In this document: piece by piece, positions 6,868 through 51,565 of the stretch
How the letters are laid out: each line of letters begins with the position of its first letter
Numbering within the stretch: position 1 is the first letter of the stretch
NCBI GenBank assembly: GCA_016844745.1
Contig: JAERMQ010000014.1
Coordinates: 1-64,000, forward strand
Origin: Ignavibacteria bacterium
GTDB taxonomy: Bacteria > Bacteroidota > Ignavibacteria > Kapaibacteriales > UBA2268
DNA length: 64,000 nucleotides
Direction: 5' to 3'
Notes under the pieces: model-generated
What the model saw: only the letters and a program-made list of their open reading frames with translations
What the model was told of the DNA's origin: nothing
Database searches by the model: none
Translations under genes and position numbers: made by a program

Positions 6868-7363
6868 AATAACTCCTACGATGAATAATTATAATTGATT
6901 TTTTACTATTTAAATAATTTTTTGTCTGAGAGATTGAAAATATTGGGTAAGCTATGTTTTAATATACTGTATTTGCTTGTTTTCATAATATTAAAGTAAA
7001 TAAAATAATATAAAATTTATAAGTCAATTCAAAGAACAGTTAGAAAGAAAAATAAAGTGAATTATTTTTCATATTACAATTTACAAAAATTATAATAAGT
7101 ACAAAATTAGTTAGTATTTTTAATAATATGTAAATATTATAATTTTTTAGGTGAGTTCTAAAATTTGTCATTCCTGCGAATGAGGTTATGTGAAAACATA
7201 GATAATGGGAAGAATGTCATTCAGAGCGAAGCGAAGAATCCAGTAGCGGCATTGGGGCTGGATTCTTCACTTCGTTCAGAATGACATTCTTCCTTTTTTG
7301 TTAGTTTTCACACAGCCTCATTCTCAGGATGACAATTTAATAATTTATTGAACCCCCATTTAA
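6868..7363. other. Intergenic region upstream of the giant protease gene
   Basis: I see no gene here. The part next to the protease start is very AT-rich and should hold its promoter; a TAATTTTG box reads on the minus strand near 7103-7110 but has no TTTG partner at the right distance. The part next to the FemAB-like gene is filled by palindrome A1 and its outer stem (7168-7337). Confidence 0.6.
7209..7293. repeat. Family A palindrome, copy A1 (nested in an outer stem 7168-7337)
   Basis: The left arm GAAGAATGTCATTC...GAAGAATCCAG and right arm CTGGATTCTTC...GAATGACATTCTTCC are separated by a short loop. The arms are of different subtypes: AGAGCGAAGCG on the left, TGAACGAAGTG type on the right. 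An outer pair of arms surrounds it: TTGTCATTCCTGCGAATGAG with a following ATGTGAAAAC on the left, and GTTTTCACACAGCCTCATTC with a following GATGACAA on the right. Confidence 0.85.
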
Positions 7364-8341
7364 TTAATCTATTTTCAGATGGTAAGTACTGCGAAGAACA
7401 CCCCGGGCATCAAATCTTTCCTTAAAATTAATCAAACCAAGCGAAGGAGTCATTGGGTCAACTGCTGATGTATCCTGCGACACTCCGATATCGACCCATT
7501 TATAATTATGCTCAACAGCCCATCTGATTGTTTCATACATGATTAAATAAATTGGTCGCAGTTGCTCATATTCGTATAACAGCATATTATAAAAACATAG
7601 CACTACATTTGGATTGCAGAGAAATAAAAGAGACCCGGCAATAGGTTTACCATTATATTCAACCATTAGAAGACGTAAATTTTCAGGCATAAGCTCCCGC
7701 AACCGCAGCATATCTTCCAAAGTATGAGTGGGTCGAACGTTATGACGAGCTTTATTTTCGATTAATATATCATTGAATGTTGCATAATCACTACTTTCGG
7801 AGATTGTTAGCTTTTTCTCGCGAAGAATTTTATGAATGGTTTTCCTTGCTGTTTTGTCAAAATTTAATAATGATTTATCGAAATTCCTCAAATCAATTGC
7901 ATGAGAAATATAATGCAATTCGAAATCAAACTTCCGATACAGCATAGCGTATTCAATGTGCTGCGAGAATTTTGTGCTATAAATCGAAGGCGGGGGTATT
8001 AAAAAAATATCTTTTACTTTTTCATTCCGGAAATGTTCCATCATAGCATCGACAATTGCGAGCGAATCCGAAAAAGGTAAATCATTAGTTACAATCCCGC
8101 CATAGCTTGCTCCGACCGGCGACCAGAACGTTTCACCTTTATTGGTCAATCCTCCCGGCAAAACAGCAATCAATTTGCCGTTTCTACGAAAGCATAAATG
8201 TTCAAATTCAAACTTACCTTCGGGATGATAATCCAAAAATGTTAGCATGTGAAACATAGTGCCGTTATTTGAATTAGCAACGAAAGCCTCCCATTCGTTG
8301 CGTTGGTTAGTTTCGAATTTATGTACTGTAATTTTATCCAT
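7364..8341 (-). CDS. FemAB-like / GNAT-fold acyltransferase
   Basis: This 325-residue protein resembles FemAB-type enzymes, whose members transfer aminoacyl or acyl groups to peptidoglycan precursors or cell-surface glycoconjugates. Supporting stretches are the N-terminal EWEAFVANSNNGTMFHM, the GLTNKGETFWSPVGASYGG segment and the C-terminal VDIGVSQDTS...GLINFKERFDA, which matches the second acetyltransferase-like half. No signal peptide or membrane segment is visible, so it should be cytoplasmic. I chose the ATG at 8341 because it overlaps the stop of the upstream YfhO-like gene in ATGGATAA, which implies translational coupling. A start 10 codons earlier (8371) is also open. The substrate is unknown; coupling to a membrane glycosyltransferase-like protein suggests a surface polymer. 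Confidence 0.72.
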   Translation of the reverse strand: MDKITVHKFETNQRNEWEAFVANSNNGTMFHMLTFLDYHPEGKFEFEHLCFRRNGKLIAVLPGGLTNKGETFWSPVGASYGGIVTNDLPFSDSLAIVDAMMEHFRNEKVKDIFLIPPPSIYSTKFSQHIEYAMLYRKFDFELHYISHAIDLRNFDKSLLNFDKTARKTIHKILREKKLTISESSDYATFNDILIENKARHNVRPTHTLEDMLRLRELMPENLRLLMVEYNGKPIAGSLLFLCNPNVVLCFYNMLLYEYEQLRPIYLIMYETIRWAVEHNYKWVDIGVSQDTSAVDPMTPSLGLINFKERFDARGVLRSTYHLKID

Positions 8342-10826
8342 TTTTGAGTTTCTTTTTTCGACGAAATTCAAATACTGCGCCGATGATTAATGCAAGGAAC
8401 AGGACGATATTAATGGGAAGACTTATTGCTTTACCTTGCTCGAATTTTTTAGAAACGAATTTGAATTCGACAGAATGTCTGCCTGCCGGAACAACAACCG
8501 AGCGAAATGCAAAGTTTGTTTTATAAGTCTTTGTCTCTTTTCCGTCGATATAAGCCTGCCAGCACACCGGATAATGAATTTCACTTACAAATAGCAAATT
8601 ACTTGCATCTGTATTTACATCTATTTTCAAATATTCGTTTCGTTTTGAAGAAATCAGTGCAGTTGATGTTTCGGAAACAGGTTGAATGATTTCAACAGGT
8701 TTTTCTTCAAGGAAAGAAATATGCCGCGGATTGAAATCTCCTTCTTTAAGGTGTTTTAAAATATCGATTTGAGGAGCAACCACAAAGCTATCAACAAAGA
8801 AAGCACGAGGTAAATAATTGTTATTCAAATAAATAAACTCGCCGGTCTGCTGTGATTGAAATAATGGTTGTGAGTTAGGTAATTCTTTATCAACAATCAG
8901 GTATTTTGCATTCATCAGATTCCATAAGAATGGATTTGTAACCTGTGATGTAGAGCCTTGGTCTGCAACATCTAACAAATCCTGAAATACTCTCATCTTG
9001 GCTGAATGATAACCGTTAATATTTTCCAGACCGAAATAAGCAGGCATGTTGGGAGACGGTTTTGCAAAATCGGCAATCCTGAAAACAGATTTGTCCTTTT
9101 CTAAGAAATCTATAACATCCGTTTTAGCAAAATATTCCTTCTCCATAGATTTCTTTGAATGTTCCATCGGTCGCCAGCCAACGCGCCATAAATCGAAGAG
9201 CAGCAAAAAAGTAATAACAGCGAATACGACGTTTTTACTTAACTTCCTTTTGCTAAAAAAGTAAAAAGCAAGCCATGCCAGAACACTCAATAGTGCAGTA
9301 AAATACCAATCGGAAATCATGTTTGAATATATAAAATCAGGGAATTCGGGAGGATACTGACTCATATTAGGATTTTGGTTAACTGCGCTAAGATAGCTGC
9401 TTTTAAAAGCGCCTGCAAATATTATTCCTATTAGGAAAAATGCAATCGAAAAGAAAAGAAAGTATAATATTTTTTTCTGCTTTGCCTGGTCGCTGTTTTT
9501 TCTTGCTTCAATTATCGAATGAATGCCATATCCGGCAAGAATAGGTACTGCAAATCCCATGATTGCAAGAACCATGCTGGGCGCCCGGAATTTGTTAAAA
9601 TTCGGAACGTAGTAAAAGAAGAAATCATAAAGCAGGGAAAAATTCTTACCAAATGATAAAAGCATAGCAAATAGACACAGTACGGCAAGAAATTGTACTG
9701 TTGGTTTCTTCCTGTTCAAAACGAAACCGAATATTGCAAGCCCTAACACAATAATACCCATATAAGGCGCTGCGTCCTCGAATTCCTTCTGCCCCCAATA
9801 AGCGTGAACCTTAATCTCCCTGCCATTATACTTATAATCAACTTTCCCGAAGCCATAATAATTGGGAACAAAAAAAGTAATGATTTCCTGCGGCGAAAAG
9901 GACCACATAGTAGAATAATTATAATCATTACCCCCGCTCTGGTCCTGGGTTTGATTTTTTGCATTGACAATCGGGGCAGAGCCTCTCGTCGAGTAAGGCA
10001 TATACTCCTGTGTACTGAAATACCTGTCTGCCGTCATTAAATAAACCATCCCGGTAGCAACGATAAATAATAATAAAGAACGCAATACATTCAGGGGTTT
10101 TGTTTTATTTTTTAAACGATAAATAAATTCTACCAAAAAGTAAATTCCTATAGCACAGAAAGAATAGAAAATCATTTGCAAATGCCCAGCCACAAACATC
10201 AGGTGTACGGCAACAACTAATAAAGCAGCATACATCAGGGAAAATCTTTCCCGCAGTTTTTCCAAAAGAATGAAAATGAATGGTAAAACAGCAAACACCA
10301 TTGGCTTGGTATTATGCCCAATCATAATCCAGACTACTACGGTCGTAGAAAAAACCGCAGCGAATGAGGTTACAAATGCAGCGAAACGGTGCAGTTTTAA
10401 AGTTCTTATGAAAATGTACATTCCAACTGCATAGAGGCAATAAAAGAAAAGAACACGTGCTACATCGCTGCCGAATATTTGACCTATAAAAACAGAGATA
10501 CCGGTGTAAATTTCCGGAATTATGTCCCACCAGCGGAATCCGGATGTCAACAGTGCAGCATAACCGGGAAGACCACAGAAAATATATGGAAGCCAAAGAG
10601 GAAAGTTGCCGCTTTTATTTGCCTGCTCAACATAAGGTCTGAAGCTAACAGAAGCAAGATTGTCCGATACAACAAAACCACCGCTGAATACAGCACCGCC
10701 AAAAAAAATAAATACGAATAAAACCAATAATCCTATAAATGCAAAATCCTGATATTTTTCTTTTATAAGTGGCGCAGTTTCTATTTCTTCACGCTTTGAA
10801 TCAACCTTTAATTTTGTCTTTGTCAT
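8334..10826 (-). CDS. YfhO-family polytopic membrane protein
   Basis: This 830-residue protein has an N-terminal hydrophilic stretch of about 25 residues, then a dozen or so hydrophobic segments through about residue 570, a soluble region (about 580-790), and a final membrane helix before a basic tail (FEFRRKKKLKNG). The segment YVPNFNKFRAPSMVLAIMGF is typical of YfhO-like proteins of Bacteroidota. The YfhO family is linked to glycosylation of lipoteichoic acid in Bacillus and belongs to the GT-C-like membrane proteins; the role here is inferred as transfer of a sugar to a surface polymer. AGGTG lies just before the ATG at 10826. Its stop overlaps the FemAB-like gene by 8 nt. Confidence 0.8.
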   Translation of the reverse strand: MTKTKLKVDSKREEIETAPLIKEKYQDFAFIGLLVLFVFIFFGGAVFSGGFVVSDNLASVSFRPYVEQANKSGNFPLWLPYIFCGLPGYAALLTSGFRWWDIIPEIYTGISVFIGQIFGSDVARVLFFYCLYAVGMYIFIRTLKLHRFAAFVTSFAAVFSTTVVVWIMIGHNTKPMVFAVLPFIFILLEKLRERFSLMYAALLVVAVHLMFVAGHLQMIFYSFCAIGIYFLVEFIYRLKNKTKPLNVLRSLLLFIVATGMVYLMTADRYFSTQEYMPYSTRGSAPIVNAKNQTQDQSGGNDYNYSTMWSFSPQEIITFFVPNYYGFGKVDYKYNGREIKVHAYWGQKEFEDAAPYMGIIVLGLAIFGFVLNRKKPTVQFLAVLCLFAMLLSFGKNFSLLYDFFFYYVPNFNKFRAPSMVLAIMGFAVPILAGYGIHSIIEARKNSDQAKQKKILYFLFFSIAFFLIGIIFAGAFKSSYLSAVNQNPNMSQYPPEFPDFIYSNMISDWYFTALLSVLAWLAFYFFSKRKLSKNVVFAVITFLLLFDLWRVGWRPMEHSKKSMEKEYFAKTDVIDFLEKDKSVFRIADFAKPSPNMPAYFGLENINGYHSAKMRVFQDLLDVADQGSTSQVTNPFLWNLMNAKYLIVDKELPNSQPLFQSQQTGEFIYLNNNYLPRAFFVDSFVVAPQIDILKHLKEGDFNPRHISFLEEKPVEIIQPVSETSTALISSKRNEYLKIDVNTDASNLLFVSEIHYPVCWQAYIDGKETKTYKTNFAFRSVVVPAGRHSVEFKFVSKKFEQGKAISLPINIVLFLALIIGAVFEFRRKKKLKNG

Positions 10827-10910
10827 TGAACACCTTTATATTTTTTGGAATTTCTTTTTTTCTATTATATACTTTGAATTTCAATTGTTAGGTGTAAGTT
10901 GATAAGTCAA

Positions 10911-10996
10911 GAAGAATGTCATTCGTAAGCGAAGTGAAGAATCCAGTAGCAACATTGAGACTGGATTCTTCACTTCGTTCAGAATGACATTCTTCC
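10911..10996. repeat. Family A palindrome, copy A2
   Basis: The left arm reads GAAGAATGTCATTCGTAAGCGAAGTGAAGAATCCAGT by position; the right arm is of the GTTCAGAATGACATTC type. It is therefore heterotypic like A1. Weak outer arms surround it (TTAGGTGTAAGTTGATAAG near 10889 and TTTTTCATCAGACTCCTAA near 11008). It lies between the divergent YfhO and tetR genes, which leaves about 100 bp for the tetR promoter. Confidence 0.85.
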
Positions 10997-11078
10997 ATTT
11001 TATTTGTTTTTCATCAGACTCCTAAATATAACCTTACAAATTAAGAAATTTTTTCAAAAAATCAGCTTTGGTCGGCAT

Positions 11079-11109
11079 TTTGTTATTTGAAAAATGTTCC
11101 GTAATTTTG
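11079..11109 (+). promoter_or_regulatory. Bacteroidota-type promoter of the tetR-efflux locus
   Basis: TTTG at 11079-11082, a 19-nt spacer, then TAATTTTG at 11102-11109. This is an exact match to the TTTG-N19-TAnnTTTG consensus of the Bacteroidota housekeeping sigma factor. Transcription should start near 11115, inside the adjoining palindrome. Confidence 0.75.
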
Positions 11110-11125
11110 AAACAAACGTTTGTTT
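11110..11125. promoter_or_regulatory. Candidate TetR operator (perfect 16-bp palindrome)
   Basis: AAACAAACGTTTGTTT is a perfect inverted repeat directly after the -7 box and 6 nt before the tetR ATG, covering the expected start of transcription. TetR-family regulators commonly bind such palindromes next to their own gene, so autorepression of tetR, and perhaps the efflux genes, is the natural reading. Confidence 0.75.
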
Positions 11126-11131
11126 GAGATT

Positions 11132-11758
11132 ATGAATGATATAAAAAATAAAGAACCGAAAAACCGGATTCTCGAAGCTGCTGCCGGATTAATTTCCCAA
11201 AAAGGTTATAGCGCCGTTGGTGTCAGGGAAATAGCAACTCGTGCCGATGTAAACGTATCGATGATTTCTTATTATTTCGGTGGGAAAATCGGAATACTGA
11301 AAGCTATTATCGAAGAATATTTTCTTAATCTTAAGGAAGTAATCGAGGACATTGCCACACGGAAACTCAGCACCGAAGAGAATACACGTGTATTTATTCA
11401 TAGCGTAGTCGATTTGATTCGCTCGAAACCGGATTTATGCAAGGTTGCAATAATTGAAATGCCTTATGATGTGCCTGAAGTTCGTGAGTTTAAAGTAGAA
11501 ATGCTACGCCAGCACATAAGTTTCATTAAAGAGAATTTTCACAGTATACCTATGAAATTGGCTCCTCAGGATAAGTATAGGCATACAATTGTTGGACCTG
11601 TCCTGATAAGTATGATATACTCTCATTTTTTATTCGGGAATTTTGCCCTGGAAGCCAACGGTATCAGCACCGGCGAAGATTTTTATTCGAATTATTCTGA
11701 AGTCATTGCAACTATATTTATTAGTGGCGTTAAGGGATTGGGGCATAAAAATATATAG
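11132..11758 (+). CDS. TetR/AcrR-family transcriptional repressor
   Basis: This 208-residue regulator has an N-terminal helix-turn-helix (RILEAAAGLISQKGYSAVGVREIATRADVNVSMISYYFGGK by features: the ILEAA, REIA and YYFGGK blocks of the TetR family) and an all-helical C-terminal ligand domain without obvious relatives. A TTG at 11120 in the same frame lies inside the operator palindrome, so the ATG at 11132 is the better start. It heads an RND efflux locus in the same direction, the classical arrangement for a local repressor that is released by a pump substrate. Which ligand it senses cannot be told from the sequence. Confidence 0.9.
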   Translation: MNDIKNKEPKNRILEAAAGLISQKGYSAVGVREIATRADVNVSMISYYFGGKIGILKAIIEEYFLNLKEVIEDIATRKLSTEENTRVFIHSVVDLIRSKPDLCKVAIIEMPYDVPEVREFKVEMLRQHISFIKENFHSIPMKLAPQDKYRHTIVGPVLISMIYSHFLFGNFALEANGISTGEDFYSNYSEVIATIFISGVKGLGHKNI

Positions 11759-11805
11759 ATTCTTTTCAAAACGGAAAAAATAATAAAATATACATGGGAG
11801 TTTAT

Positions 11806-13245
11806 ATGATTCTTGAAAGTAAAAAAAGAACCAAAAAAATTACAAGTGATATTGAATCAAATCAACGATACGGAAATGATTTTCATAAAATTGAACGATT
11901 AAAATTTAATTTCTTCATTGCACTATTCATTCTCTTATCGCTGAATTTGCCCTATTCATCATTCGCACAAGACAAGAAAGAACTGACTATCGATGACTGC
12001 CTGAAAATCGGAATGGAAAACAGCAAATTGCTTAAGATTTCCAGGTCGAAATTAAAGTCGGCAGAATCGAAATCAAAAGAGGCAAATGCTGCTGCACTAC
12101 CATCCCTGAAATTAAATGCCGGTTATTCAAGACTAAGCGAAATCGAAAGGGATTTTAGTTCATTTTCAAGTTCCACATTAACATCCGGAACTGCTTCGTT
12201 AATTAATACTTTCAGTCCCCTGATTTATAACAATTACAATGTAAGGTTAACACTTTCGCAACCTGTGTTTACCGGGTTCCGATTGTCGGCATCGAGCAAT
12301 TTGCAGAAACACTCAGCCGAAGCAACAACTAAAGATTTTGACAAAGATAAATCCCAGCTTGTTTTCGATATTAAAAATAATTTCTGGTCGTATTATAAAG
12401 CAAACGAGATGAGGAAATCCATCGAGGAAAATATAAGCCAAACCCAAGCCCACCTTGCAGATGTCGAAAGTTTTTATAAGAACGGCATGGCAACCAATAA
12501 TGAAGTATTAAAAGTAAAAGTGCAGTTATCAAATTTGCAGATTCTAAAAATCGATGCCGAAAATTTAGCACAGATTACAATGATGGCTTTGAATAATACT
12601 CTGGGTATGCCCGTTCTTACTAATACCGAATTGAAAGCATCAGTAGATTTTAAAGAATCCACTCAGGAAAATCTCAATCAATTAGTTAGCACTGCCGTAA
12701 CGGAAAGACCGGAAATTAACGCAATGAAATATCGTGTAAAGATGGGCGAAGACGGAATCAGGATTGCAAAGTCAGGTTGGTATCCACAGATTAACTTCCT
12801 TGCAAATTTTTATTACTTAAACCCAAACCAAAGAATATTTCCAATGAAGGATGAATTCAACGGAACATGGGATTTAGGCTTCAATTTGTCTTTTGATTTA
12901 TGGAACTGGCAAACTTACGAACACCAGACCCAGCAGGCGGTCGAAAATCTCAATCAAGCCACTCTTGGATTGGAGCAGTTAAAAGATGCCATCACTTTAG
13001 AAGTTGCTCAAAGTTATTCGAATTTATTTCGTTCAAAGGAAAAAATCAGCGTATCCCAGGATGCAGTCAAACAGGCTGAAGAGAATTACAGGGTAACAAA
13101 TGAAAAATTCAAATCGGGTGTAGCAATTAATTCCGATTTATTGGATGCGGAATCTGCTCTACTAAATGCAAAAATCAATCTCGCAACGGCAATAGCAGAC
13201 TATGAAATCTCATTAGCTAAATTAGAACGGACAATAGCTAAGTAA
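11806..13245 (+). CDS. TolC-family outer-membrane efflux protein
   Basis: This 479-residue protein carries two repeated TolC/OEP halves. Recognisable blocks are ELTIDDCLKIGMENS at the mature N-terminus, RLTLSQPVFTGFRL in the first half and the LEVAQSYSNLFRSKEKI...AEENYRVTNEKFKSGVA coil in the second. GGGAG sits 5 nt before the ATG at 11806, making it preferable to the ATG at 11794. The N-terminus is unusual: about 35 charged or polar residues precede the hydrophobic signal segment (FIALFILLSLNLPYSSFAQ), so the signal peptide is long. It should form the outer-membrane channel for the downstream fusion protein and pump. Confidence 0.9.
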   Translation: MILESKKRTKKITSDIESNQRYGNDFHKIERLKFNFFIALFILLSLNLPYSSFAQDKKELTIDDCLKIGMENSKLLKISRSKLKSAESKSKEANAAALPSLKLNAGYSRLSEIERDFSSFSSSTLTSGTASLINTFSPLIYNNYNVRLTLSQPVFTGFRLSASSNLQKHSAEATTKDFDKDKSQLVFDIKNNFWSYYKANEMRKSIEENISQTQAHLADVESFYKNGMATNNEVLKVKVQLSNLQILKIDAENLAQITMMALNNTLGMPVLTNTELKASVDFKESTQENLNQLVSTAVTERPEINAMKYRVKMGEDGIRIAKSGWYPQINFLANFYYLNPNQRIFPMKDEFNGTWDLGFNLSFDLWNWQTYEHQTQQAVENLNQATLGLEQLKDAITLEVAQSYSNLFRSKEKISVSQDAVKQAEENYRVTNEKFKSGVAINSDLLDAESALLNAKINLATAIADYEISLAKLERTIAK

Positions 13246-13280
13246 TATTATGAGAGTTCAGAAAAATGTTGGAATTTACA

Positions 13281-13357
13281 AGAATGTCATTCGTAAGCGT
13301 AGTGAAGAATCCAGAATCAACACTGGGACTGGATTCTTCACTACGCTACCAATGACA
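13281..13357. repeat. Family A palindrome, copy A3
   Basis: Left arm AGAATGTCATTCGTAAGCG with TAGTGAAGAATCCAG; right arm CTGGATTCTTCACTACGCT with ACCAATGACA. Both arms share the change to GCGTAGTG, unlike other copies, so the stem is kept by paired changes. It lies between tolC and the fusion-protein gene. Confidence 0.8.
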
Positions 13358-13431
13358 AATTTTTTTGCACTTTAATTTAAAGGACTTAAAGTATCAATTA
13401 GTAAACAAAAATTATGAAACAAATTCCGACA

Positions 13432-13513
13432 AAGAGAAACCCCCTAACCCCCTTTGAAAAAGGGGGGACAACCAATTCCCCCTTTTTCAAAGGGGGTTAG
13501 GGGGTTTCTCTTA
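13432..13513. repeat. Family B palindrome, copy B1, with GTCATT-type tail
   Basis: AAGAGAAACCCCCTAACCCC and its complement GGGGTTAGGGGGTTTCTCTT flank an inner stem of CCTTTGAAAAAGGGGG type. About 30 nt further right stands the tail TTCCATTATTTTGGGGTTCAGAATGACA (ending near 13566), also found beside copies B3 and B8. Together with A3 it fills the 420-bp gap between tolC and the membrane-fusion gene. No coding sequence is seen in that gap. Confidence 0.85.
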
Positions 13514-13665
13514 AATTTGTAATTGCATATTTTTATTAATTCCATTATTTTGGGGTTCAGAATGACAATTTTCCCTGTATTATAGTGCTGACACTATCAA
13601 TATCACTGGAAAAACAATAATAAATTTAGAATTTGAAAATTAAATAAATAAAACTAAGGTAGTCT

Positions 13666-14718: not shown

Positions 14719-14744
14719 AACTAAATTTAAAGAAAGGTAAAAAA

Positions 14745-17876: not shown

Positions 17877-17960
17877 ATTAATATTTTTCATTGCATCAAG
17901 AGGAACTCTTGACGCAAGGAGAAATGTTATTCCAGATAAATAGCTATTTAACAATTTAAC

Positions 17961-18042
17961 AAGAATGTCATTTGTAAGCGAAGTGAAGAATCCAGTCCCA
18001 ATGCGGTTTCTGGATTCTTCATTTCGCTTACAAATGACATTC
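17961..18042. repeat. Family A palindrome, copy A4
   Basis: Left arm AAGAATGTCATTTGTAAGCG, right arm CGCTTACAAATGACATTCT. Both arms carry TTTGTAAG where other copies have TTCGTAAG: a paired change. It lies just past the RND pump gene, between convergent genes, with GGGACAGCCTC nearby on the right as a remnant of the outer stem. Confidence 0.82.
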
Positions 18043-18095
18043 TACTTTACTTTTGGGACAGCCTCGAAAGAGATTTAAAACGAATATTAAAAAAT

Positions 18096-18413: not shown

Positions 18414-18585
18414 TGGTAAAATTCCATAATTCCTGTTGATTCATAATATTTTTGTCATTACTAATTCCTCCAATGTAGCAAATTAATAAATTATTTATTT
18501 ACATGAAACAATAAGAATGCTATTTAGAACATTTGCAAAACTTCCTTCACAATATTGCGAAGTCATATTTATAAGCATATTTCCT

Positions 18586-18616: not shown

Positions 18617-18648
18617 CATATTATTTGGAAGACCTAAAATCAGGGATT

Positions 18649-19629: not shown

Positions 19630-19691
19630 TTAAATTTTTTTATAAAACAAATTTTCATTCTTTCCATGAGCTTGAGTGAAAAGTCAATATT

Positions 19692-19779
19692 AGAAGAATG
19701 TCATTCGTAAGCGAAGTGAAGAATCCAGTAGCAGTACTGGGACTGGATTCTTCACTTCGCTTACGAATGACATTCTTCT
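19692..19779. repeat. Family A palindrome, copy A5 (perfect 38-bp arms)
   Basis: The left arm (from 19692) and the right arm (to 19779) are perfectly complementary over 38 bp around a loop of about 12 nt. Both arms carry the GTAAGCGAAGTG subtype. It separates rfaE1 from rfaE2. Confidence 0.9.
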
Positions 19780-21226: not shown

Positions 21227-21285
21227 AATTATTGAGAATTCTAATAAATGTTCTTTTTATTTTATGCTAATAAAATTAAGAAATA

Positions 21286-21370
21286 GAAGAAAGTCATTCT
21301 GAACGAAGTGAAGAATCCAGTCCCAATCCTGTTACTGGATTCTTCACTTCGTTCAGAATGACTTTCTTCT
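21286..21370. repeat. Family A palindrome, copy A6 (perfect 36-bp arms with paired variant)
   Basis: The left arm begins AGAAGAAAGTCATTCTGAAC and the right arm ends GTTCAGAATGACTTTCTTCT. Other copies have ATGTCATT/AATGACAT, so the same A-T change was made in both arms. Subtype TGAACGAAGTG in both arms. Confidence 0.9.
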
Positions 21371-26080: not shown

Positions 26081-26081
26081 A

Positions 26082-34031: not shown

Positions 34032-34125
34032 AAGAGAAATCCCCCCTACCCCCTTTTTCAAAAGGGGATTAAAGAATTTTTTCTTATCCCCCTTTGAAAA
34101 AGGGGGGTAGGGGGGATTTCTCTTA
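34032..34125. repeat. Family B palindrome, copy B3, with GTCATT-type tail
   Basis: Arms AGAGAAATCCCCCCTACCCCC and GGGGGTAGGGGGGATTTCTCT with inner stems. To the left at about 33977-34003 is the tail GTCATTCTGAACTCCAAAAT AAGG in reverse orientation, as beside B1 and B8. Confidence 0.85.
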
Positions 34126-35191: not shown

Positions 35192-35506
35192 TCTAAGCCC
35201 TAATTAAAATTAGCAAATGGTGATTAAATTACTAAACAGTACTCAAAGAAAAAGATTTATTACATTAAATGGTATTTACCCCAAATCAAGTTCTGGAAAC
35301 ATTAACGCTGCAAACTGCGGAGTATTTGCCCATTCTAAATGAAAAGAAAAACCCCCTAACCCACTTTAAAAAAGGGGGAATTATAAATTCCCCCTTTTTT
35401 AAAGGGGGTTAGGGGGTTTTTCTTTATTTCAATTATTATTTAAATTAATAAACCATAAAAAAGTGAATTAATTTTTAGAAAATAAATAATTTATCCTATT
35501 AAAATA
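35192..35506. other. Intergenic region with family B palindrome
   Basis: No gene is visible between glycosylasparaginase and the T9SS PKD protein; the only structure is copy B4 at 35343-35426. Confidence 0.6.
35343..35426. repeat. Family B palindrome, copy B4
   Basis: Near-perfect arms AAGAAAAACCCCCTAACCC and GGGTTAGGGGGTTTTTCTTT with an inner stem (TTTAAAAAAGGGGGAATT / AATTCCCCCTTTTTTAAA). Confidence 0.85.
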
Positions 35507-40702: not shown

Positions 40703-40756
40703 TTTATAACCAAAAAATTTGTAAAAATTGATATTATCAAAAAATTGTTCTCATTA

Positions 40757-41743: not shown

Positions 41744-41847
41744 ACCAAATCCAAAATTATTTAACTTCAAAATTAATCATTTTTTTATAAAATATAATTG
41801 TAAATTCACTAAATTTATATTTTTTAAAAATTCGGATATTAACTTTT

Positions 41848-42456: not shown

Positions 42457-42482
42457 GGGATGTCTCAGAAGTCTATAAAAAT

Positions 42483-42568
42483 GGAAGAATGTCATTCAGA
42501 GCGAAGCGAAGAATCCAGACCCAATGCCGCTTCTGGATTCTTCGCTTCGCTCTGAATGACATTCTTCC
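42483..42568. repeat. Family A palindrome, copy A7 (perfect 37-bp arms)
   Basis: Left arm from GGAAGAATGTCATTCAGAGC, right arm to GCTCTGAATGACATTCTTCC, perfectly complementary, both of the AGAGCGAAGCG subtype. It lies in the 129-bp gap between convergent M15 and lpxD genes; outer arms GGGGATGTCTCAGAAG and CTTTTGAGATAGCCTC partly pair. Confidence 0.9.
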
Positions 42569-42585
42569 TAGCTTTTGAGATAGCC

Positions 42586-43641: not shown

Positions 43642-43659
43642 ATAAGCCTAACTAAAAAC

Positions 43660-44439: not shown

Positions 44440-44557
44440 TATGCTTCCATAATTAATTAAAATTACCAATTAGCTCAAAGCCGGCACAAATTCACATATA
44501 TTTGAATAGCTATTAATTTTACGAAATTTGTTAATCCCTGATTTATCGATAAATAAC

Positions 44558-44636
44558 AGGAAAATCCCCCTAACACCTTTTTTCAAAAGGGGATAAGAAA
44601 TTCCCCCTTTGAAAAAGGGGGTTAGGGGGATTTTCT
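44558..44636. repeat. Family B palindrome, copy B5
   Basis: GGAAAATCCCCCTAACACC pairs with GGTTAGGGGGATTTTC around an inner stem. It sits within the 309-bp gap between the two skp genes, the only long break in the bamA operon. No gene is seen in the gap. Confidence 0.85.
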
Positions 44637-44748
44637 TCATCTTTATAATTTTTATGATTTTTTAGCAGTTTAAAGTTATTACTCATTATACTTACTAACA
44701 AATCCTTACTCTTAATTTCAGCCAAACATTAAACTATCAAAATTCCGA

Positions 44749-45288
44749 TTACTTAGTATTTCTTTTCATTCTATCCAGGATTTTAAATGTAATATCTAAT
44801 TTTTCTTCGACATAAAGCACCGATGATGAATTGCTTTTATCGACAACCAGACTAATATTTTCTTCTTTGGCTACTTCGCGAATCGTTTTCAATAACTTAT
44901 CCTGAATTGGCTCTAACAGCATCATTTGAAATTTGAGCAAATCACCCTGCTGTCCGAAAATCTGTTCGCGGTATTGCATCATTTGCATATTTGCGCTTTG
45001 CAAAGCTTCCTCTTCTTTCTTTTGCTTATCGGCATCCATCAGGCTTTTCTGCTTTTCGTATTGCTTTAAGCGTGCTTCCAGATCTTGCTTCATCTGCAAT
45101 AATGTATCCTGGTATTTCTGCCCTGTTTCCTGCAATTTCTTCTCCGCCTCGGCATATTCCGGCATTTCTTTCATTACTTTTTTAATGTCCACGGCAGCAA
45201 CCGGTACTCCGGATTCTTTTTTCTGGGCATAAGAATTTGCCGAAAATAATAGCACAACTGCTATTGCTAAGAGAAAAATTTTTGTCAT
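44749..45288 (-). CDS. skp: Skp/OmpH-family periplasmic chaperone
   Basis: A 179-residue protein with signal peptide MTKIFLLAIAVVLLFSANSYAQ, then VAAVDIKKVMKEMPEYAEAEKKL, a coiled coil of about 70 residues (LQMKQDLEARLKQYEKQKSLMDADKQKKEEEAL) and the tail VAKEENISLVVDKSNSSSVLYVEEKLDITFKIL, the standard Skp pattern and length. It protects outer-membrane proteins in the periplasm and hands them to BamA. AAGGTG lies 5 nt before the ATG at 45288; a GTG two codons upstream is less likely. The gene lies 117 nt after bamA. Confidence 0.93.
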   Translation of the reverse strand: MTKIFLLAIAVVLLFSANSYAQKKESGVPVAAVDIKKVMKEMPEYAEAEKKLQETGQKYQDTLLQMKQDLEARLKQYEKQKSLMDADKQKKEEEALQSANMQMMQYREQIFGQQGDLLKFQMMLLEPIQDKLLKTIREVAKEENISLVVDKSNSSSVLYVEEKLDITFKILDRMKRNTK

Positions 45289-45405
45289 ATTCACACCTTA
45301 AATTAAATTAGTATATAAACTGTTATTTTCTAAGTTATATTAAATAAATATAAAAATGTCATTCGTAAGTTTTGCATTTTAACCATATAATTTCTAAATT
45401 CCATG

Positions 45406-47766
45406 TTATTGCTGTCCCAAATGGAATAAGAAGCGCCAACCGGAAATAGCTCCGGTATAATCTTTGTCGAATCCGTAACCATAAGAAAATCCTACAACCC
45501 CGATAGGATTAATCATTAATTGTACCCCAAATCCCGCTGAGCGCTTTAAATCAAATGGGTCGGTAATTTTCAGGCTCTTCCATACATTTCCTGCTTCCAT
45601 AAACCCATAAATGTAAATTGGCATCGGAGCCAATGTAACTGCAAATCGTAGCTCGGCAGTATATTTTGAAAGCACCCTGCCTGCATCGACTGCGCCGACC
45701 CGTGGGTCCTGATATCCCCGAAGGGGGGTTACTCCAAATCCTCCAAGTCCATTACCGCCTATCATATATAATTCAATCGGTGAGATTGCCGTATCGGATT
45801 TAAAACCCGTAATATAGCCGGCTTTGGTTCCTAAATAAAGCACCAGACGGTCATTGCCGTCAATCTGAAATAATGGATTATACATATCGAATGTGATTTC
45901 ATTCTTAAAGTAATCAGTCGTGCTTAGCCCCAATGCACCCAAAGCCACACTCGTTGAAAATGCAAATCGCGAACCAACTGTCGGGAAAAATATATTATTT
46001 AAACTGATACGGGAAAAAGCCTGGGCAATTGTAAATTCTGTGCTGATACCCGGTCTCCAATATGCGCTTCCGGAAGTACCGACGTCGTTTCTTGAGAAGC
46101 GCAAACTCCAATCACCACGGAAATAATCATCGGGCCAATGAAAGCGCCTGCCTAAGTTAATAGCTGTACCTGTCCGGCGAATATTGTATATATAATTCTG
46201 GCGGGTATCGAAAATATTAAATCCAACGGTAGTTGGCTCATCGAGAAGCCAAGGTTCGGTAAATCCGATTGATATTGTCTGATAGCGGTTTGCCTGTCCG
46301 AATTCCCAGTTAAAATTAAAAATCTGTCCTGAACCCCCTTTGAACGGTTCAGTTAAAGAGAAATTATTGAACGTAAATCCGATTGCTCCCGTCAGTCCGA
46401 AAGTACCTGCAAATCCTATAGAAGCATTAAATGTATCGGTTGAACGCTCTTCGACTTTATAGACTACATCTACCTTAGTATTATCCTGTTCGACAGGTTT
46501 AATATCGGGCTTGAGGGTTTCCTGATTGAAATAATTAAGCACTCCGAGCGCACGAACGCTTTTAATGACCGCAGATTTATCGAAATAATCACCGGGACGA
46601 GTATATAATTCCCTTCTTATAACTTTATCTTTTGTTTTGGAATTGCCTACAATATCTACTTTCCTTATTGTTATACGTGTTCCTTCGATTACTTTTATTG
46701 TTACATCTATCGAATCCTGACCAACAGCGCGTTCTTCTTTCTCCAAAAAACTAGTCAAATATCCATTATCCATATATAGAGAGCGAATATCGGTTTGGTC
46801 TTCGTTACCGTTCATGTTCATATCGAACCGCTCGACATTGTATTCGACTCCCTCTTTAAAATCCAATCTCTTGCGGAGCAAATCCGATGGGAATACGATA
46901 TTCCCTTTGAATGCGATTTTCCTGATATAAAATTTTGGACCTTCATTGACCGTTATCCTGATAGTGACATTCTTCTTATCATTATCATAAATAACTGTGT
47001 CTTTAACCATTTCGCCGTATATAAATCCTTTTTGTTTAAAGTATTTACGCAGCAATTCCTTGTCCTTTTCATATTTATTTTTATCGAATTTCCCTGAAGA
47101 CCAGAATTTCCACCAAACATTTTCTTTAGTATCCTCGAAAGATGATGCTAATTCACTTCCGGTGAATAGTTTATTTCCGGAGAATTCTATTGCTTCAACC
47201 TTGAATTGTGCGCCTTCGTCAATATTTAAAATTAATTTCGAATAATTTGCAGTATCGGTAGGTACAACTTTGGATTCGATATTGGCAAACATCAATCCTT
47301 CGCCTTCGTAAAGTTTTTTTAACTTCTGTTTGATTAAATAAACATCGTAAGGTGAAATAATGTCGCCCCTCATTTTCGATGCAGTTTTATTCAGTTCGGT
47401 TTGAGATAATTTATCATTATTTTCAAATATAATTTGAGATAATCGCTGATTTTCCTGTACTTTTATAACAAGAAAGACACCGGCTGTAGTAATTTTTTCA
47501 GCTTTAATTTCAATATTTGAGAATTGTTTTCGTTTCCAAAGATTTCTAAGTGCTGTCTGCAGCTTTGCATCAGCCTGGAGATTGATTTTATCGCCGATTT
47601 GAAGACCTGAAATAGCAACTATTGTTTCAGCATCGGAAAACTTTGTTCCCTCTACCCTGACGTTTGCGATAATGTATGTTTTGCCATCCGGTTGAGAAAA
47701 CAATTGGAAAGCAGAAATAAAAAATATAAAAAACAAGCAAAAGTATTTACGACATGTTGATAGCAT
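45406..47766 (-). CDS. bamA: Outer-membrane protein assembly factor BamA
   Basis: A 786-residue Omp85 protein. After the signal peptide (ending LFSQ) come five POTRA domains (residues about 30-445; e.g. VRVEGTKFSDAETIVAISGLQIGD, EAIEFSGNKLFTGSEL, IRKVDIVGNSKTKDKVIRREL) and a 16-strand barrel with the conserved RGY-type motif in GFGVTPLRGYQDPRVG. The chain ends GWRFLFHLGQQ. It folds and inserts beta-barrel proteins in the outer membrane. The start ATG overlaps the end of uppS by 20 nt in another frame, so the two genes are coupled; skp, skp and lpxD follow. Confidence 0.97.
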   Translation of the reverse strand: MLSTCRKYFCLFFIFFISAFQLFSQPDGKTYIIANVRVEGTKFSDAETIVAISGLQIGDKINLQADAKLQTALRNLWKRKQFSNIEIKAEKITTAGVFLVIKVQENQRLSQIIFENNDKLSQTELNKTASKMRGDIISPYDVYLIKQKLKKLYEGEGLMFANIESKVVPTDTANYSKLILNIDEGAQFKVEAIEFSGNKLFTGSELASSFEDTKENVWWKFWSSGKFDKNKYEKDKELLRKYFKQKGFIYGEMVKDTVIYDNDKKNVTIRITVNEGPKFYIRKIAFKGNIVFPSDLLRKRLDFKEGVEYNVERFDMNMNGNEDQTDIRSLYMDNGYLTSFLEKEERAVGQDSIDVTIKVIEGTRITIRKVDIVGNSKTKDKVIRRELYTRPGDYFDKSAVIKSVRALGVLNYFNQETLKPDIKPVEQDNTKVDVVYKVEERSTDTFNASIGFAGTFGLTGAIGFTFNNFSLTEPFKGGSGQIFNFNWEFGQANRYQTISIGFTEPWLLDEPTTVGFNIFDTRQNYIYNIRRTGTAINLGRRFHWPDDYFRGDWSLRFSRNDVGTSGSAYWRPGISTEFTIAQAFSRISLNNIFFPTVGSRFAFSTSVALGALGLSTTDYFKNEITFDMYNPLFQIDGNDRLVLYLGTKAGYITGFKSDTAISPIELYMIGGNGLGGFGVTPLRGYQDPRVGAVDAGRVLSKYTAELRFAVTLAPMPIYIYGFMEAGNVWKSLKITDPFDLKRSAGFGVQLMINPIGVVGFSYGYGFDKDYTGAISGWRFLFHLGQQ

Positions 47767-48586
47767 TAAGGATTCTCTTTAAGTAAGTATTCTGGTCCTC
47801 TATTTCTTTATTTGTAATTTGCTCAGATGTTTTACCGAAACGGCGCTCACGATGCTGGAACTCTGCTAATGCCTTATATAGTTCGTTCCTCCTGAATTCG
47901 GGCCAATACTTTTCGGTAATATAAAATTCGCTGTAAGCATTTTCCCAAAGTAAAAAATTGGAGAGCCTCATTTCACCGCTGGTACGAATTACGAAATCCG
48001 GGTCAGGCAATGGATTAGTCTGCAAATAACCGGCAAAAAATTCTTCATTAATATCTTCAGGTGAAATTTTTCCACGCCTGACATCCAAGGAAAGCATCTG
48101 GACAGCCCTGACTATATCCCATCTTCCGCTATAACTAAGCGCTAACGTCAGGGTTAATCCGTCGTTATCCTTAGTAGTATCAATAGCTCTGTGCAGCAGC
48201 TTCTGAACTGATTTAGGCAGTGAGCTTACTTTACCGATAGAGAACATTTTTACCTTGTTTTCATTCAATTCTTTAAGTTCACGGCGAAGGTAGAATTCAA
48301 GCAATCTCATTAATCCTCCCACCTCGGAGGTAGGTCGTTTCCAATTTTCAATTGAGAAGGCATACAAAGTAAGATATTTTATTCCAAGCTGCGAACAGGC
48401 TTTGACGATATCGCGAACGGTTTCGATACCTTCACGGTGACCGGCAATTCTATTTAGGTTTTGCTTCACTGCCCAACGTCCGTTACCGTCCATAATCATA
48501 GCAATATGTTTGGGCAGGTTGCCGTTTTTCAATAACTCCTGCTGAATATTCTTATCTTCGCTGCCTTGTTGCTCGTTCCAGGACAA
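47747..48586 (-). CDS. uppS: Isoprenyl transferase (undecaprenyl diphosphate synthase)
   Basis: A 279-residue enzyme making the C55 isoprenoid carrier used for peptidoglycan and LPS sugars. The catalytic Asp33 is in HIAMIMDGNGRWA; other conserved parts are GHREGIETVRDIVKAC, YLTLYAFSIENWKRPTSEV, and DFVIRTSGEMRLSNFLLWENAYSEFYITEKYWPEF. The start is a TTG at 48586, preceded by GGGAG 7 nt away; no ATG occurs before the conserved block, so a non-ATG start is required. It heads the bamA operon, downstream of a good Bacteroidota promoter. Confidence 0.94.
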   Translation of the reverse strand: MSWNEQQGSEDKNIQQELLKNGNLPKHIAMIMDGNGRWAVKQNLNRIAGHREGIETVRDIVKACSQLGIKYLTLYAFSIENWKRPTSEVGGLMRLLEFYLRRELKELNENKVKMFSIGKVSSLPKSVQKLLHRAIDTTKDNDGLTLTLALSYSGRWDIVRAVQMLSLDVRRGKISPEDINEEFFAGYLQTNPLPDPDFVIRTSGEMRLSNFLLWENAYSEFYITEKYWPEFRRNELYKALAEFQHRERRFGKTSEQITNKEIEDQNTYLKRILNAINMS

Positions 48587-48616
48587 ATCAAGCTCCCGTT
48601 AAATTTATACAAGTTA

Positions 48617-48648
48617 CAAAATTACTATTTATTTTAGTCATTAGCAAA
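48617..48648 (-). promoter_or_regulatory. Bacteroidota-type promoter of the uppS-bamA-skp-lpxD operon
   Basis: Minus strand TTTG (48648-48645), a 20-nt spacer and TAATTTTG (48624-48617). The expected leader to the TTG start is about 25 nt. Confidence 0.65.
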
Positions 48649-48776
48649 ATTCAGGATTCATGCCTTTTTTACTTTTTGATTATAAATATAGAAGTTTTTA
48701 TTACGAATTTATTTGATTTGATGAGAAAATTCCGTTAAATTGAAAATTCATGTTTTGTACAAAAAAAAAGTTGAAT

Positions 48777-48998
48777 ATGGATTATCAAAATCTAAGTTTT
48801 GAAGAAAAATTAAAATTATTAGAAGATATTGTCGAAACACTCGACAAAGGGGAAGCCCCTTTGGATGAACTTATTGCTAAGTACGAAGAAGGAATGGAGC
48901 TTGCCCGTTTATGCCGTCGTTATTTATCAGCAGCCGAAATGAAGGTTATTGAAATCCGTAAAAATAATGAAGCAGAATTAATAAATCCCGATATGTAA
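48777..48998 (+). CDS. xseB: Exonuclease VII small subunit
   Basis: A 73-residue helical protein with the typical XseB layout: NLSFEEKLKLLEDIVETLDKGEAPLDELIAKYEEGMELARLCRRYLSAAEMKVIEI by order of its conserved blocks (LxxIVxxLExGxxxLxxxxxxYExG, then CxxxLxxAExKV-like). It pairs with XseA to degrade single-stranded DNA. The large subunit gene is not next to it. I chose the ATG at 48777; the in-frame ATG at 48750 adds nine residues that do not fit the family. Confidence 0.88.
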   Translation: MDYQNLSFEEKLKLLEDIVETLDKGEAPLDELIAKYEEGMELARLCRRYLSAAEMKVIEIRKNNEAELINPDM

Positions 48999-49015
48999 TG
49001 ATAAGTCATTCTAAA

Positions 49016-49110
49016 AAGAGAAATCCCCCCTACCCCCCTTTTTCAAAGGGGGATTGAAGAATATTTTTCTTATCCCCCTTTGAAAAAGGGGGGTAGGGGG
49101 GATTTCTCTT
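49016..49110. repeat. Family B palindrome, copy B6
   Basis: AGAGAAATCCCCCCTACCCCC pairs with GGGGGTAGGGGGGATTTCTCT, with two inner AT-rich and C/G stems. It is close to B3 in sequence and length, and GTCATTCT stands just before the left arm. Between convergent xseB and recX it could serve as a terminator. Confidence 0.85.
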
Positions 49111-49146
49111 GATGATATCGTTTACTAATTCCTTTTCTAATCATTC

Positions 49147-49776
49147 TTAGTACTCTTCAATTTTCATTTCCGACATTACCTGCTTGATTAAATTGTATGA
49201 ATATCCTTCGCGAATCAGGTGAGTCCTCAATAGTTCGATTTGTTTTTTTGCCGGTTTGTATTTGACTTTCGAAAGCTTTTTTTCTGCCGAACGGCGAACA
49301 ATATCAAATGCAGAATCAGCCGGGTAATGCTCCGTCACTGCTTTTTCAGCAATTTCCTTTGTAATACCTTTGTTCCTAAGTTCCATAATCAGTTTCTGCT
49401 TCGAAGCCGTTTTTCGTTTTAAATAATCAAGGATAAATAAAGTTGCAAATTTTTCATCATTGTATAGATTGAATTCTCCGGCAAATTCCATAGCAATATT
49501 AATCTCTTCGGGTAGGAAACCTTTTCTCTTTAATTGACCGGCAATTTGATTAAACGTTCTTGGTTTGTAAGAGACAAAAGAATAAACAGAATTCTTAGCA
49601 TCATAAATTCTTTTTTCCTGTGATAATTTTTGATATGTTTCCGGAACGAGATTCATACCGGAACTGATATTATACTTAAAAGCCAAATCCATAGGGATTT
49701 CCATGGTTTCGCCATCATTGAAAATCAATAAGTAAGTTGACTTTTTATTTTTAGCAATGATTTTTTTAATTTTCAT
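49147..49776 (-). CDS. recX: RecX regulatory protein
   Basis: A 209-residue protein with three-helix RecX repeats: SFVSYKPRTFNQIAGQLKRKGFLPEEINIAMEFAGEFNLYNDEKFATLFILDYLKRKTASKQKLIMELRNKGI by its conserved order (R.....L..KL..KG, D..FA). RecX binds RecA filaments and restrains them. It is shorter in its N-terminal part than some relatives but complete. It follows recA in the same direction, with a family B palindrome in the gap. Confidence 0.88.
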   Translation of the reverse strand: MKIKKIIAKNKKSTYLLIFNDGETMEIPMDLAFKYNISSGMNLVPETYQKLSQEKRIYDAKNSVYSFVSYKPRTFNQIAGQLKRKGFLPEEINIAMEFAGEFNLYNDEKFATLFILDYLKRKTASKQKLIMELRNKGITKEIAEKAVTEHYPADSAFDIVRRSAEKKLSKVKYKPAKKQIELLRTHLIREGYSYNLIKQVMSEMKIEEY

Positions 49777-49885
49777 TTAAAATTTATTGGTAAGAAGAAG
49801 CTTGAAAAAAAGTATTTTTCAATGGCAAGACCCTTTTGTAAATGAGACGTGTGAAAAACCAAAATTACTTACAATTTCAACAAAA

Positions 49886-49988
49886 TGAAGAACCCCTCCC
49901 TAACCCTCCCCAAAGGAGAGGGAATATATTACTGACTAATTTTTAAATTCCCTCCCCTCTGGGGAGGGTTAGGGAGGGGTTCTTCATT
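49886..49988. repeat. Family B palindrome, copy B7 (CCCTCCC variant) with outer GTGTGAAAA stem
   Basis: Arms GAAGAACCCCTCCCTAACCC and GGGTTAGGGAGGGGTTCTTC, an altered form in which both arms show CCCTCCC/GGGAGGG. An outer stem ACGTGTGAAAAACCAAAA (about 49846-49863) pairs with TTTTGACTTTTCACACGG (about 50012-50029). It lies between recA and recX. Confidence 0.87.
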
Positions 49989-50071
49989 TTCCTTATTTTC
50001 ATTACTGTTTTGACTTTTCACACGGACTTGAATGCAGGAATGAAATTTTTTAAGTTTCAATATTTCTTTAT

Positions 50072-51130
50072 TTATTCTTCCGTTTCATTCGGCTCATCAA
50101 CAATGTCCATTTTAAGGGCATTTCGAATTTCAGCCTCGAGCGAAGCCATAATTTTGGGGTCATCAGTAAACAACTTGCGTAGTCCTTCCCTACCCTGCAC
50201 CCGGTCGGCTTTGTAGGCATACCAGGAACCGGTTTTCTGGATAATACCGTATTCAGTACCGACATCAATCATATCACCGATTTTCGAAATTCCTTCATTG
50301 TACATAATATCGAATTCCACTTCTTTGAAAGGAGGTGCAACCTTATTCTTAACGACTTTTACTTTAACACGATTGCCAACAATATCCTGCCCCTCTTTAA
50401 TGTGGTCTTTGCGCCTTATATCCAAGCGAACGGAAGCATAAAATTTCAATGCATTGCCGCCGGTCGTCGTTTCGGGATTACCGTAAACAACACCAATCTT
50501 ACTTCGCAACTGATTAGTAAAAATCACGGTTGTATTCGATTTGCTTATTGCAGCATTTAATTTGCGCATAGCCTGGGACATTAGTCTTGCCTGAGAGCCC
50601 ATTTGCGAATCGCCCATTTCACCTTCAATTTCAGCGCGAGGCGTCAGGGCGGCTACGGAATCGATTACCACAACATCGATAGCGCCGCTTCGGACAAGCT
50701 TTTCAACAATTTCCAATGCCTGCTCACCGAACTCCGGTTGAGATAATAATAAATGATTTAAGTCGATGCCGATTCTCTGGGCATAATTAATATCGAGTGC
50801 ATGTTCGGTATCAACAAATGCCGCAATACCTCCGCGTTTCTGGGCTTCGGCTATAACATGCAGACATACCGTTGTTTTTCCGGAAGATTCCGGTCCGAAG
50901 ATTTCCACTATTCTCCCGCGCGGCACACCGCCAATGCCGATTGCAGCATCTAACGACAGGCAACCCGTTGGTATGCAATCTATGGCAACAACTCTTTTAT
51001 CGCTCAACATCATTATGGAACCCTTTCCGTGGGCTTTTTCGATTTGTTCCATTGCAAATTTCAGGGCTTTCATCCTTTCTTCGCCTATTTTAGGAGTGAC
51101 CTTTTCCATTGGTTTTTCTTTTTCTGCCAT
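50072..51130 (-). CDS. recA: Recombinase RecA
   Basis: A 352-residue protein with the whole RecA core: Walker A GPESSGKT at residues 79-86, [10 protein letters not shown], the Walker B region [24 protein letters not shown], the L2 loop [30 protein letters not shown] and the C-terminal acidic tail (DEPNETEE). It catalyses strand exchange and SOS induction. The ATG at 51130 is preceded by AAGAGA. A -7-like box TAAATTTG lies about 45 nt upstream. No SOS box (LexA operator) could be recognised. Confidence 0.98.
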
Positions 51131-51175
51131 TTTTTTTCTCTTATAGTATAAATTTTAAATTATGATATTATCGTA

Positions 51176-51206
51176 CAAATTTAATTAATTGTTTTTGATT
51201 TTCATA
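51176..51206 (-). promoter_or_regulatory. Candidate recA promoter
   Basis: Minus strand TAAATTTG (51183-51176) with TATG 19 nt upstream (three of four bases of TTTG). Leader about 40 nt. Confidence 0.4.
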
Positions 51207-51238
51207 AAAATTAAAAAATTATGTTAATTTACTTTAGG

Positions 51239-51565
51239 ATTGTCATTCCTGCGAATGAGGCTGTGTAAAAAGTCAGGAAGAATGTCATTCTGAACGAAGT
51301 GAAGAATCTTCTTCAATAAATGATGAATGTAATTTTGAGTTTGGTAAATATTGTTAATCTTTCGAGAACCGCATCATTACTATATTCATAAAATATGTAT
51401 TGAACTGTTTTGGAAATCATTAATAATTAATTAATCAGAATTTATGGGAAGATTCTTCGCTTCGCTCAGAATGATATTCTTGCAGACTTTTTACACAGAC
51501 TTTAAACCGGGAATCCACTCCCAGAACGATTTTATGGATTCACGCATTCGCGGGAATGACAATTT
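51239..51565. repeat. Large composite family A palindrome, copy A8, with 130-bp insert
   Basis: The outer arms are GTCATTCCTGCGAATGAGG with CTGTGTAAAAAGTC on the left and GACTTTTTACACAG on the right, with GCATTCGCGGGAATGAC further right. Inner family A arms GAAGAATGTCATTCTGAAC... (51278-51313) and ...GCTCAGAATGATATTCTTG (51448-51482) enclose about 130 bp of AT-rich, unrelated DNA instead of a short loop. The remainder of the gap to the VWA gene (51566-51809) has no gene; TTGCAT-N17-TATAAA (51717-51745) and an AAGTGAT/ATCACTT hairpin lie there. Confidence 0.75.

Follow-up and report, generated by a model that had tools for sequence, protein, structure and literature searches.

Inverted hairpin pairs in an Ignavibacteria genome are back-to-back copies of a TGTC-tagged repeat related in design to CGTC-type REPs

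GTAG REPs and REPINs are hairpins with a 5' tetranucleotide tag that occur as inverted dimers in intergenic positions. In the RAYT REPtron, the tag is GTAG or GTGG and the Y1 transposase gene is flanked by the repeats. A further class, the CGTC-tagged REPs, was described in a 2013 survey whose available text assigns them to five phyla, gives stems of 8-9 bp and loops of 4-5, records CGTC-4 REPs in Wolbachia and reports that no transposase was found for them (Di Nocera et al., PMC3733652). In Bacteroidetes, TnpA proteins of subclass 2.6 are flanked by atypical structures, according to the part of the source that was available (PMC6006769). Here, we describe a repeat of an Ignavibacteria bacterium (GCA_016844745.1) that is like the GTAG REPs in its tagged hairpin, its inverted dimers and its intergenic position, but carries the tag TGTC.

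The window, i.e. the whole stretch of 64,000 nt that was analysed (contig JAERMQ010000014.1), had been said in a sequence-only reading to contain eight inverted pairs and a degenerate ninth copy at 59269, all of them intergenic and with at least three arm subtypes. All eight pairs were recovered at their positions, the copy at 59269 was indeed degenerate, three arm subtypes were present among the window copies, and 0/9 copies overlapped the flanking ORFs (>=80 aa) that were checked. Each inverted pair consists of two back-to-back copies of a small repeat (the arm), which appears to fold by itself and in an uncommon manner. The window copies are as follows:

7172..7329, strand (.): MITE-like unit with a dimer; arms 7216-7240 (+) and 7261-7285 (-) of two subtypes, 20-nt spacer; outer ends of the unit GAGGTTATGTGAAAA and GAGGCTGTGTGAAAA
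10911..10995, strand (.): dimer with arms of two subtypes (GTAAGCGAAGT / TGAACGAAGT)
13281..13356, strand (.): dimer with an A to T change (CGTAG) matched in both arms, which are non-identical elsewhere
17953..18052, strand (.): dimer with both arms of the GTAAGC subtype, differing once
19692..19779, strand (.): dimer of the GTAAGC subtype; arms identical, 95% complementary over 44
21285..21370, strand (.): dimer of the TGAACGAAGT subtype; arms identical, 37/37 complementary, both with T to A before the tag
42483..42568, strand (.): dimer of the AGAGCGAAGC subtype; arms identical, 37/37 complementary
51258..51501, strand (.): dimer with a long spacer of 142 nt; arms of two subtypes at 51284-51308 (+) and 51451-51475 (-)
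59269..59338, strand (.): degenerate dimer copy

The two arms of a copy had been described as changing together. Not all pairs match, however: the arms are identical in the copies at 19700, 21293 and 42491 (3/8) and non-identical in the remaining 5/8, and the copies at 7216, 10918 and 51284 combine arms of different subtypes within one dimer. We then counted arms in the whole 5.0-Mb host genome (128 contigs), where the pattern GTCATTCN{4,7}CGAAGYGAAGAATC matched 246 + 250 = 496 arms and the reversed control matched none; chance is therefore excluded. Over 357 kb, made up of the window and 20 further host stretches, inverted dimers predominated (61 dimers vs 19 single arms), whereas in other genomes many arms are single; the dimer spacer was 20 nt in 36/61 and otherwise 14-39, 72 or 134-145 nt.

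The arm begins with TGTC as an unpaired tag; a stem of five base pairs follows, then two G·A mismatches, two further base pairs and a three-base GNA loop, and the arm ends in a tail, as summarized by the formula TGTC-ATTCT-GA-GC(GNA)GC-GA-AGAAT-C. With the CGTC-tagged REPs, as presented in the available text of PMC3733652, it shares the unpaired CGTC/TGTC at one end, an A-T and then a T-A pair at the foot of the stem, inverted dimers, intergenic sites, a high copy number and the lack of a known transposase; a short CCA tail may be a further common trait. By eye, the CCA tail was found in most short-spacer host dimers and in most of the listed arms of two other genomes (G375 and G271), and in viral contigs the tail was C in 99/105 sites and then T in 77 or C in 20 of 105. 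Stem and loop differ from those given for the CGTC REPs: tandem G·A separates 5 bp from 2 bp, the loop has 3 nt, and nine stem steps are reached only if the G·A are counted as pairs. The arm also occurs in about 15 phyla rather than five. In our reading, it probably forms a structural class of its own, new but near the CGTC REPs, set apart by the stem and loop sizes described in the available text of the survey; it may still overlap with one of the consensus lines in Figure 2 of that survey.

Scans of IMG/VR viral contigs in which the tested positions were left free were run to the end and returned 75, 87 and 106 stretches. With three pairs free on both sides (82 sites), the first tested pair was T-A in 80 and C-G in 2, the next was T-A in 44, C-G in 30, G-C in 5, A-T in 2 and T·G in 1 (Watson-Crick in 81/82), and the cap pair was G-C in 68, A-T in 12 and another combination in 2. 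When the mismatch positions were free (NN/NN), GA/GA was retained in 94/99 sites. A free loop was GNA in 105/121 sites, and with the feet left free the unpaired tag was kept as T 89, G 101, T 99 and C 97 of 105 sites.

We also collected 419 non-host loci (3.3 Mb), which held 497 sites with <=5 mismatches, vs 0 in the reversed control. Pair 6/22 was Watson-Crick in 482/497 sites vs a shuffled mean of 292, a comparison that is inflated because most non-host sites fit the patterns by which they were fetched. Two-sided changes were present at pairs 5/23, 6/22, 7/21, 8/20 and 11/17; G·A was found at 9/19 in 487 and A·G at 10/18 in 488 sites, base 14 was free to vary, and positions 13-15 were GNA in 439 and ANA in 31. 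When the partner positions were slid, the Watson-Crick share dropped from 91% to 46% or less. The first two stem pairs were A-T in 482 and T-A in 480 of 497 sites, most of them fetched with these letters.

The freer tests are the free-position IMG/VR scans and the 83 incidental non-host sites (<=5 mismatches) that fit no fetch pattern. In these 83 sites, the first two stem pairs were A-T in 67 and T-A in 70, and two-sided changes were Watson-Crick in 61/64 cases over the five pairs (5/5, 33/36, 6/6, 14/14 and 3/3, in the order above). One-sided changes at the same pairs (8, 11, 12, 21 and 8 = 60, some of them wobble) count against the pairing. G·A was retained in 78 and A·G in 76 of the incidental sites, and the loop was GNA in 50 and ANA in 16. 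At <=7 mismatches, 175 incidental sites vs 4 in the reversed control gave the same trend in weaker form. Furthermore, the frame GTCA(4)GA(7)GA(4)TC had complementary stems in 433/451 matches (the fetch patterns inflate this count), and the complementary stems in this frame included 45 other than TTCT and TCCT. Longer arms carry a second GA/GA layer, e.g. GGGAGCGAAGCGACC between the outer GA steps.

The host arms allow intra-arm and inter-arm pairing to be told apart. Among 161 host 25-mers, positions 11/17 were G-C in 79 and A-T in 78, and 4 had another combination. A wider host set comprised 89 dimers, namely 67 with two 25-nt arms, 9 with two 26-nt arms and 13 mixed, and 9/67 differed between their arms at 11/17. 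In 7/9 of these, one arm was G-C and the other A-T, so that inter-arm pairing was broken and intra-arm pairing kept; in 2/9, one arm lacked the 11/17 pairing. Paired changes in copies elsewhere, which the sequence-only reading had put forward as the test of its hairpins, were found beyond chance, and compensatory changes lie inside the single arm in non-host and host copies alike. These results indicate that the covarying unit is the single arm rather than the long two-arm stem. We think that the arm is probably a REP-like mobile unit recognized as a single-stranded DNA hairpin, whose dimers were amplified in MITEs of the host.

The matching between the arms of a dimer is real, yet mixed dimers are common. 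Identical arms were found in 35/61 host dimers, where random pairing would give 13 (at most 22 in 2000 shuffles), and non-identical arms in the other 26/61. In the 67 dimers of the wider host set whose arms both measure 25 nt, five private changes were matched in both arms, whereas 0.39 would be expected and the maximum was 3. Outside the arm hairpin, the base that precedes the tag was A in both arms of 4/61 dimers vs 0.48 expected (P 0.0006) and in one arm of 3/61; this T to A change had been taken as unique to the copy at 21286, which it is not. Such matching, including that outside the arm hairpin, would fit a transcribed RNA element (3' end protection of mRNA, a terminator or an sRNA) in which the long two-arm hairpin is selected and paired changes keep the stem, as would the intergenic position of the window copies and the location of 105/110 host arms outside ORFs >=110 aa, where the non-coding share is 18%. 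Arms also lay slightly more often on the same strand as tandem genes (cellular 53:39, viral 66:47), but none of three sets showed a significant strand bias (p 0.175, 0.09 and 0.9). An RNA element is further opposed by the seven dimers that lost inter-arm and kept intra-arm pairing at 11/17, by the many non-host arms that, by eye, are single or lack a like arm in inverted orientation as partner, and by the absence of any Rfam family at the gathering score in the window; we consider it unlikely. The earlier reading had offered selection on a structure or copying between arms as reasons for a maintained stem. The matching beyond chance stands, but pairing along the whole two-arm stem does not explain the covariation best. 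Because intra-arm pairing holds where inter-arm pairing fails, the arm matching is best read as arm copying or dimer amplification.

The sequence-only reading knew of no named family with this sequence, and 0 Rfam families reached the gathering score in the window. Permissive Rfam searches with single copies returned sub-threshold matches only, three in one search and 13 in the other, and 12/13 of the latter were miRNA precursor models. No description of the arm sequence was found in the open-licence literature, including the available parts of PMC12306157 and PMC5896051, and searches of that literature with arm substrings and their translations returned only papers that were unrelated by title and abstract. 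The best sub-threshold Rfam match was the Wolbachia sRNA WsnRNA46 at 7191-7311 of the window (31.2 bits vs 65.3 needed, E 1e-4). Because Wolbachia carries CGTC-4 REPs, as stated in the available text of PMC3733652, this RNA family may contain a CGTC-type dimer.

The exact 25-mer GTCATTCTGARCGAAGYGAAGAATC was present in 14/40 genomes including the host, all 14 within the host's family, and in 0/16 genomes from other families of the host's order. It was also present in 53/395 genomes drawn from the host's phylum, host included, and in at least 117 stretches of named genomes, the titles of 80 listed ones spanning, as we take it from the strain names, about 15 phyla. The listed strains include Sulfurihydrogenibium, Helicobacter, Butyricicoccus, Mucilaginibacter and Chlorobaculum; about 0.002 chance matches would be expected in the named-genome collection (an estimate for even base composition). 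Arms were rare in named plasmids (12/72,556 records) and in phages (24/50,697 records, one covering 80% of the query). This letter-for-letter occurrence in many distant bacteria suggests an old mobile DNA element.

Two relatives carry tandem head-to-tail arrays of the arm, one with 13 exact copies at a mostly regular 32-nt step with two gaps (G016:C15:44356-44927) and one with 4 copies at a 37-nt step (G012:C220:3059-3194). At two viral loci (L318 and L420), predicted ORFs read through apparent arms, and their translations there are spurious, among them HSEHSEES and ILSERSESKNL; a literature search with such peptides gave nothing relevant.

The sequence-only reading had compared the hairpins with REP elements and pointed to Y1 transposases. 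The comparison itself is sound, and the host has six Y1_Tnp matches; a further 27 occur in 10/13 other arm-bearing genomes. If the arms were REPs moved by the host's cognate Y1 enzyme (RAYT/TnpA-REP), these matches and the REP-like tag plus hairpin would be accounted for, and the subclass 2.6 TnpA with its atypical flanking structures, mentioned above, would be a precedent in Bacteroidetes. However, arms on both sides of the Y1 gene were found at 0/33 loci within 1.5 kb, several of which end at contig ends; the tag is TGTC, not GTAG; and 3/13 arm-bearing genomes had no Y1 match, one of them a single contig at 99% completeness. We regard this explanation as distinctly unlikely, and the Y1 transposase was rejected as partner since none of the 6 host and 27 other loci is flanked on both sides. 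At L469, an arm-like site lies about 1.4 kb from the Y1 gene, on one side. Y1 domain matches also lie inside long open frames at L005 (G000:C33, 1258 codons) and L464 (G059:C76, 1273 codons).

No transposase recurred beside the arms among the first 25 of 199 families (104 neighbour ORFs, 80 named loci), and within the same 25 families the neighbours had ordinary functions, no Pfam family occurring in more than 4/104. In the wider set, recurrent neighbours were mainly apparent phage structural genes (labelled by eye), as expected of viral contigs.

By eye, at least three MITE-like frames can be told apart around the host dimers:

Host frame 1: GAGRCTGTSTSAAAA-type ends, 20-nt spacer
Host frame 2: GGGTTCTAAAAATT ends, 26-nt spacer
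Host frame 3: spacer of roughly 140 nt

Like MITEs, these host units are, by eye, short, non-coding and multicopy with terminal inverted repeats, many ends being degenerate; possible target site duplications were seen by eye in single cases, e.g. at L498, and no autonomous copy with host MITE ends was present in nine loci examined. Terminal repeats of the GAGRCTGTSTSAAAA type (and variants) and of the GGGTTCTAAAAATT type bracket the dimers, as they would if the hairpin were merely the interior of ordinary non-autonomous DDE transposons and its sequence had no role. Against this, conservation seems much stronger in the arm than in the ends (496 arms vs 32 exact ends of each type in the host, counted with patterns that differ in strictness), covariation is not expected in filler DNA, and the inner arms, unlike MITE interiors, occur alone, in other frames and outside any single MITE frame across phyla. 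We regard ordinary MITEs as a very improbable explanation. Elsewhere, genome G239 has a dimer with a 33-nt spacer, and ATTCT/AGAAT arms of G375 and G271 are often paired, by eye, with an ATGCT/AGCAT arm. At the host locus L509, frame 2 carries classic GTCATTCCCGCG arms where the present arms would be, and this one case suggests exchange with CGTC-type REPs.

Several GGGTTCTAAAAATT-frame copies among the host loci L506-L535 have an intact first arm and a second arm broken at varying points (e.g. L513, L515, L525, L528 and L530), for which we propose palindrome-driven deletion or assembly error as alternatives. In addition, GTGTG-type MITE units were seen by eye beside or within split GTCATTCCTGC...GCAGGAAT palindromes (window 7167-7340 and 51242-51560; L498), which look as if a MITE unit had inserted into the loop of another REP.

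We return to the preferred reading, a REP-like unit recognized as a single-stranded hairpin. Because they are seen in the sequence itself, its architecture, covariation, multi-phylum spread, dimers and host MITE-like frames can be stated as observations. In this architecture, the stem of five pairs, the tandem G·A/A·G step and the two-pair cap with its GNA triloop lie between TGTC, unpaired at the 5' end, and the tail at the 3' end. The following steps are proposed on top of these observations. By analogy with HUH (Y1) enzymes, an enzyme that processes single-stranded DNA may recognize tag plus hairpin and copy or move the unit. In the host, DDE-type transposases that recognize the MITE ends would then have multiplied the dimers within MITEs, and the arm matching could result from this dimer amplification together with template-switch copying between arms. 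Counting against this reading are the Y1 loci, none with arms on both sides, the nine loci that contained no autonomous copy, the one-sided changes, the folding predictions given below and the rarity of arms in plasmid and phage records; moreover, no insertion event was seen. More tentatively, it is possible that the arm represents a mobile hairpin of single-stranded DNA in which short stems alternate like a ladder with tandem sheared G·A pairs, topped by a DNA-type GNA loop; some 15 phyla would share it in almost identical letters, and a novel enzyme would move it. CGTC-type REPs are a large class, and a recognition structure as sharply defined as this one, with its TGTC tag, its tandem G·A and its GNA cap, offers a bait for the enzyme, while the covariation indicates which letters to alter in a binding test. 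The repeat also suggests that a 25-bp sequence can remain nearly fixed across phyla as a structured DNA unit and not as a gene.

The centre of the arm is GCGAAGC or ACGAAGT, and GNA loops have a DNA preference. The former has the same letters as d(GCGAAGC), an extraordinarily stable DNA mini-hairpin, which is a chemical motif and not a repeat family. Solved single-stranded DNA structures include GCGAAGC (1KR8 and 1PQT) and ACGAAGTGCGAAGC (1L0R), as listed in the available part of PMC5430850. The available text of PMC10527192 gives 76.5 degrees for an example of a 2-bp DNA mini-hairpin, which we infer to be GCGAAGC. In nearest-neighbour folding, the TGAGC arm was no stabler than shuffles (z 0.19 DNA, -0.28 RNA), and folding energy was dropped as support for the single arm because it was not above shuffles. 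The predicted fold of TGAGC arms is the proposed one; the TGAAC arm takes the proposed fold in the RNA model and does not form the cap in the DNA model, and the host GTAAGC subtype is predicted to fold otherwise (z -3.44).

The window also contains a second family of intergenic palindromes, e.g. AAACCCCCTAACCCCC...GGGGGTTAGGGGG, with up to 39/39 paired positions, at the following sites:

13432-13512: palindrome of the second family
34032-34124: palindrome of the second family
35343-35425: palindrome of the second family
44549-44646: palindrome of the second family
49016-49110: palindrome of the second family
49882-49990: palindrome of the second family
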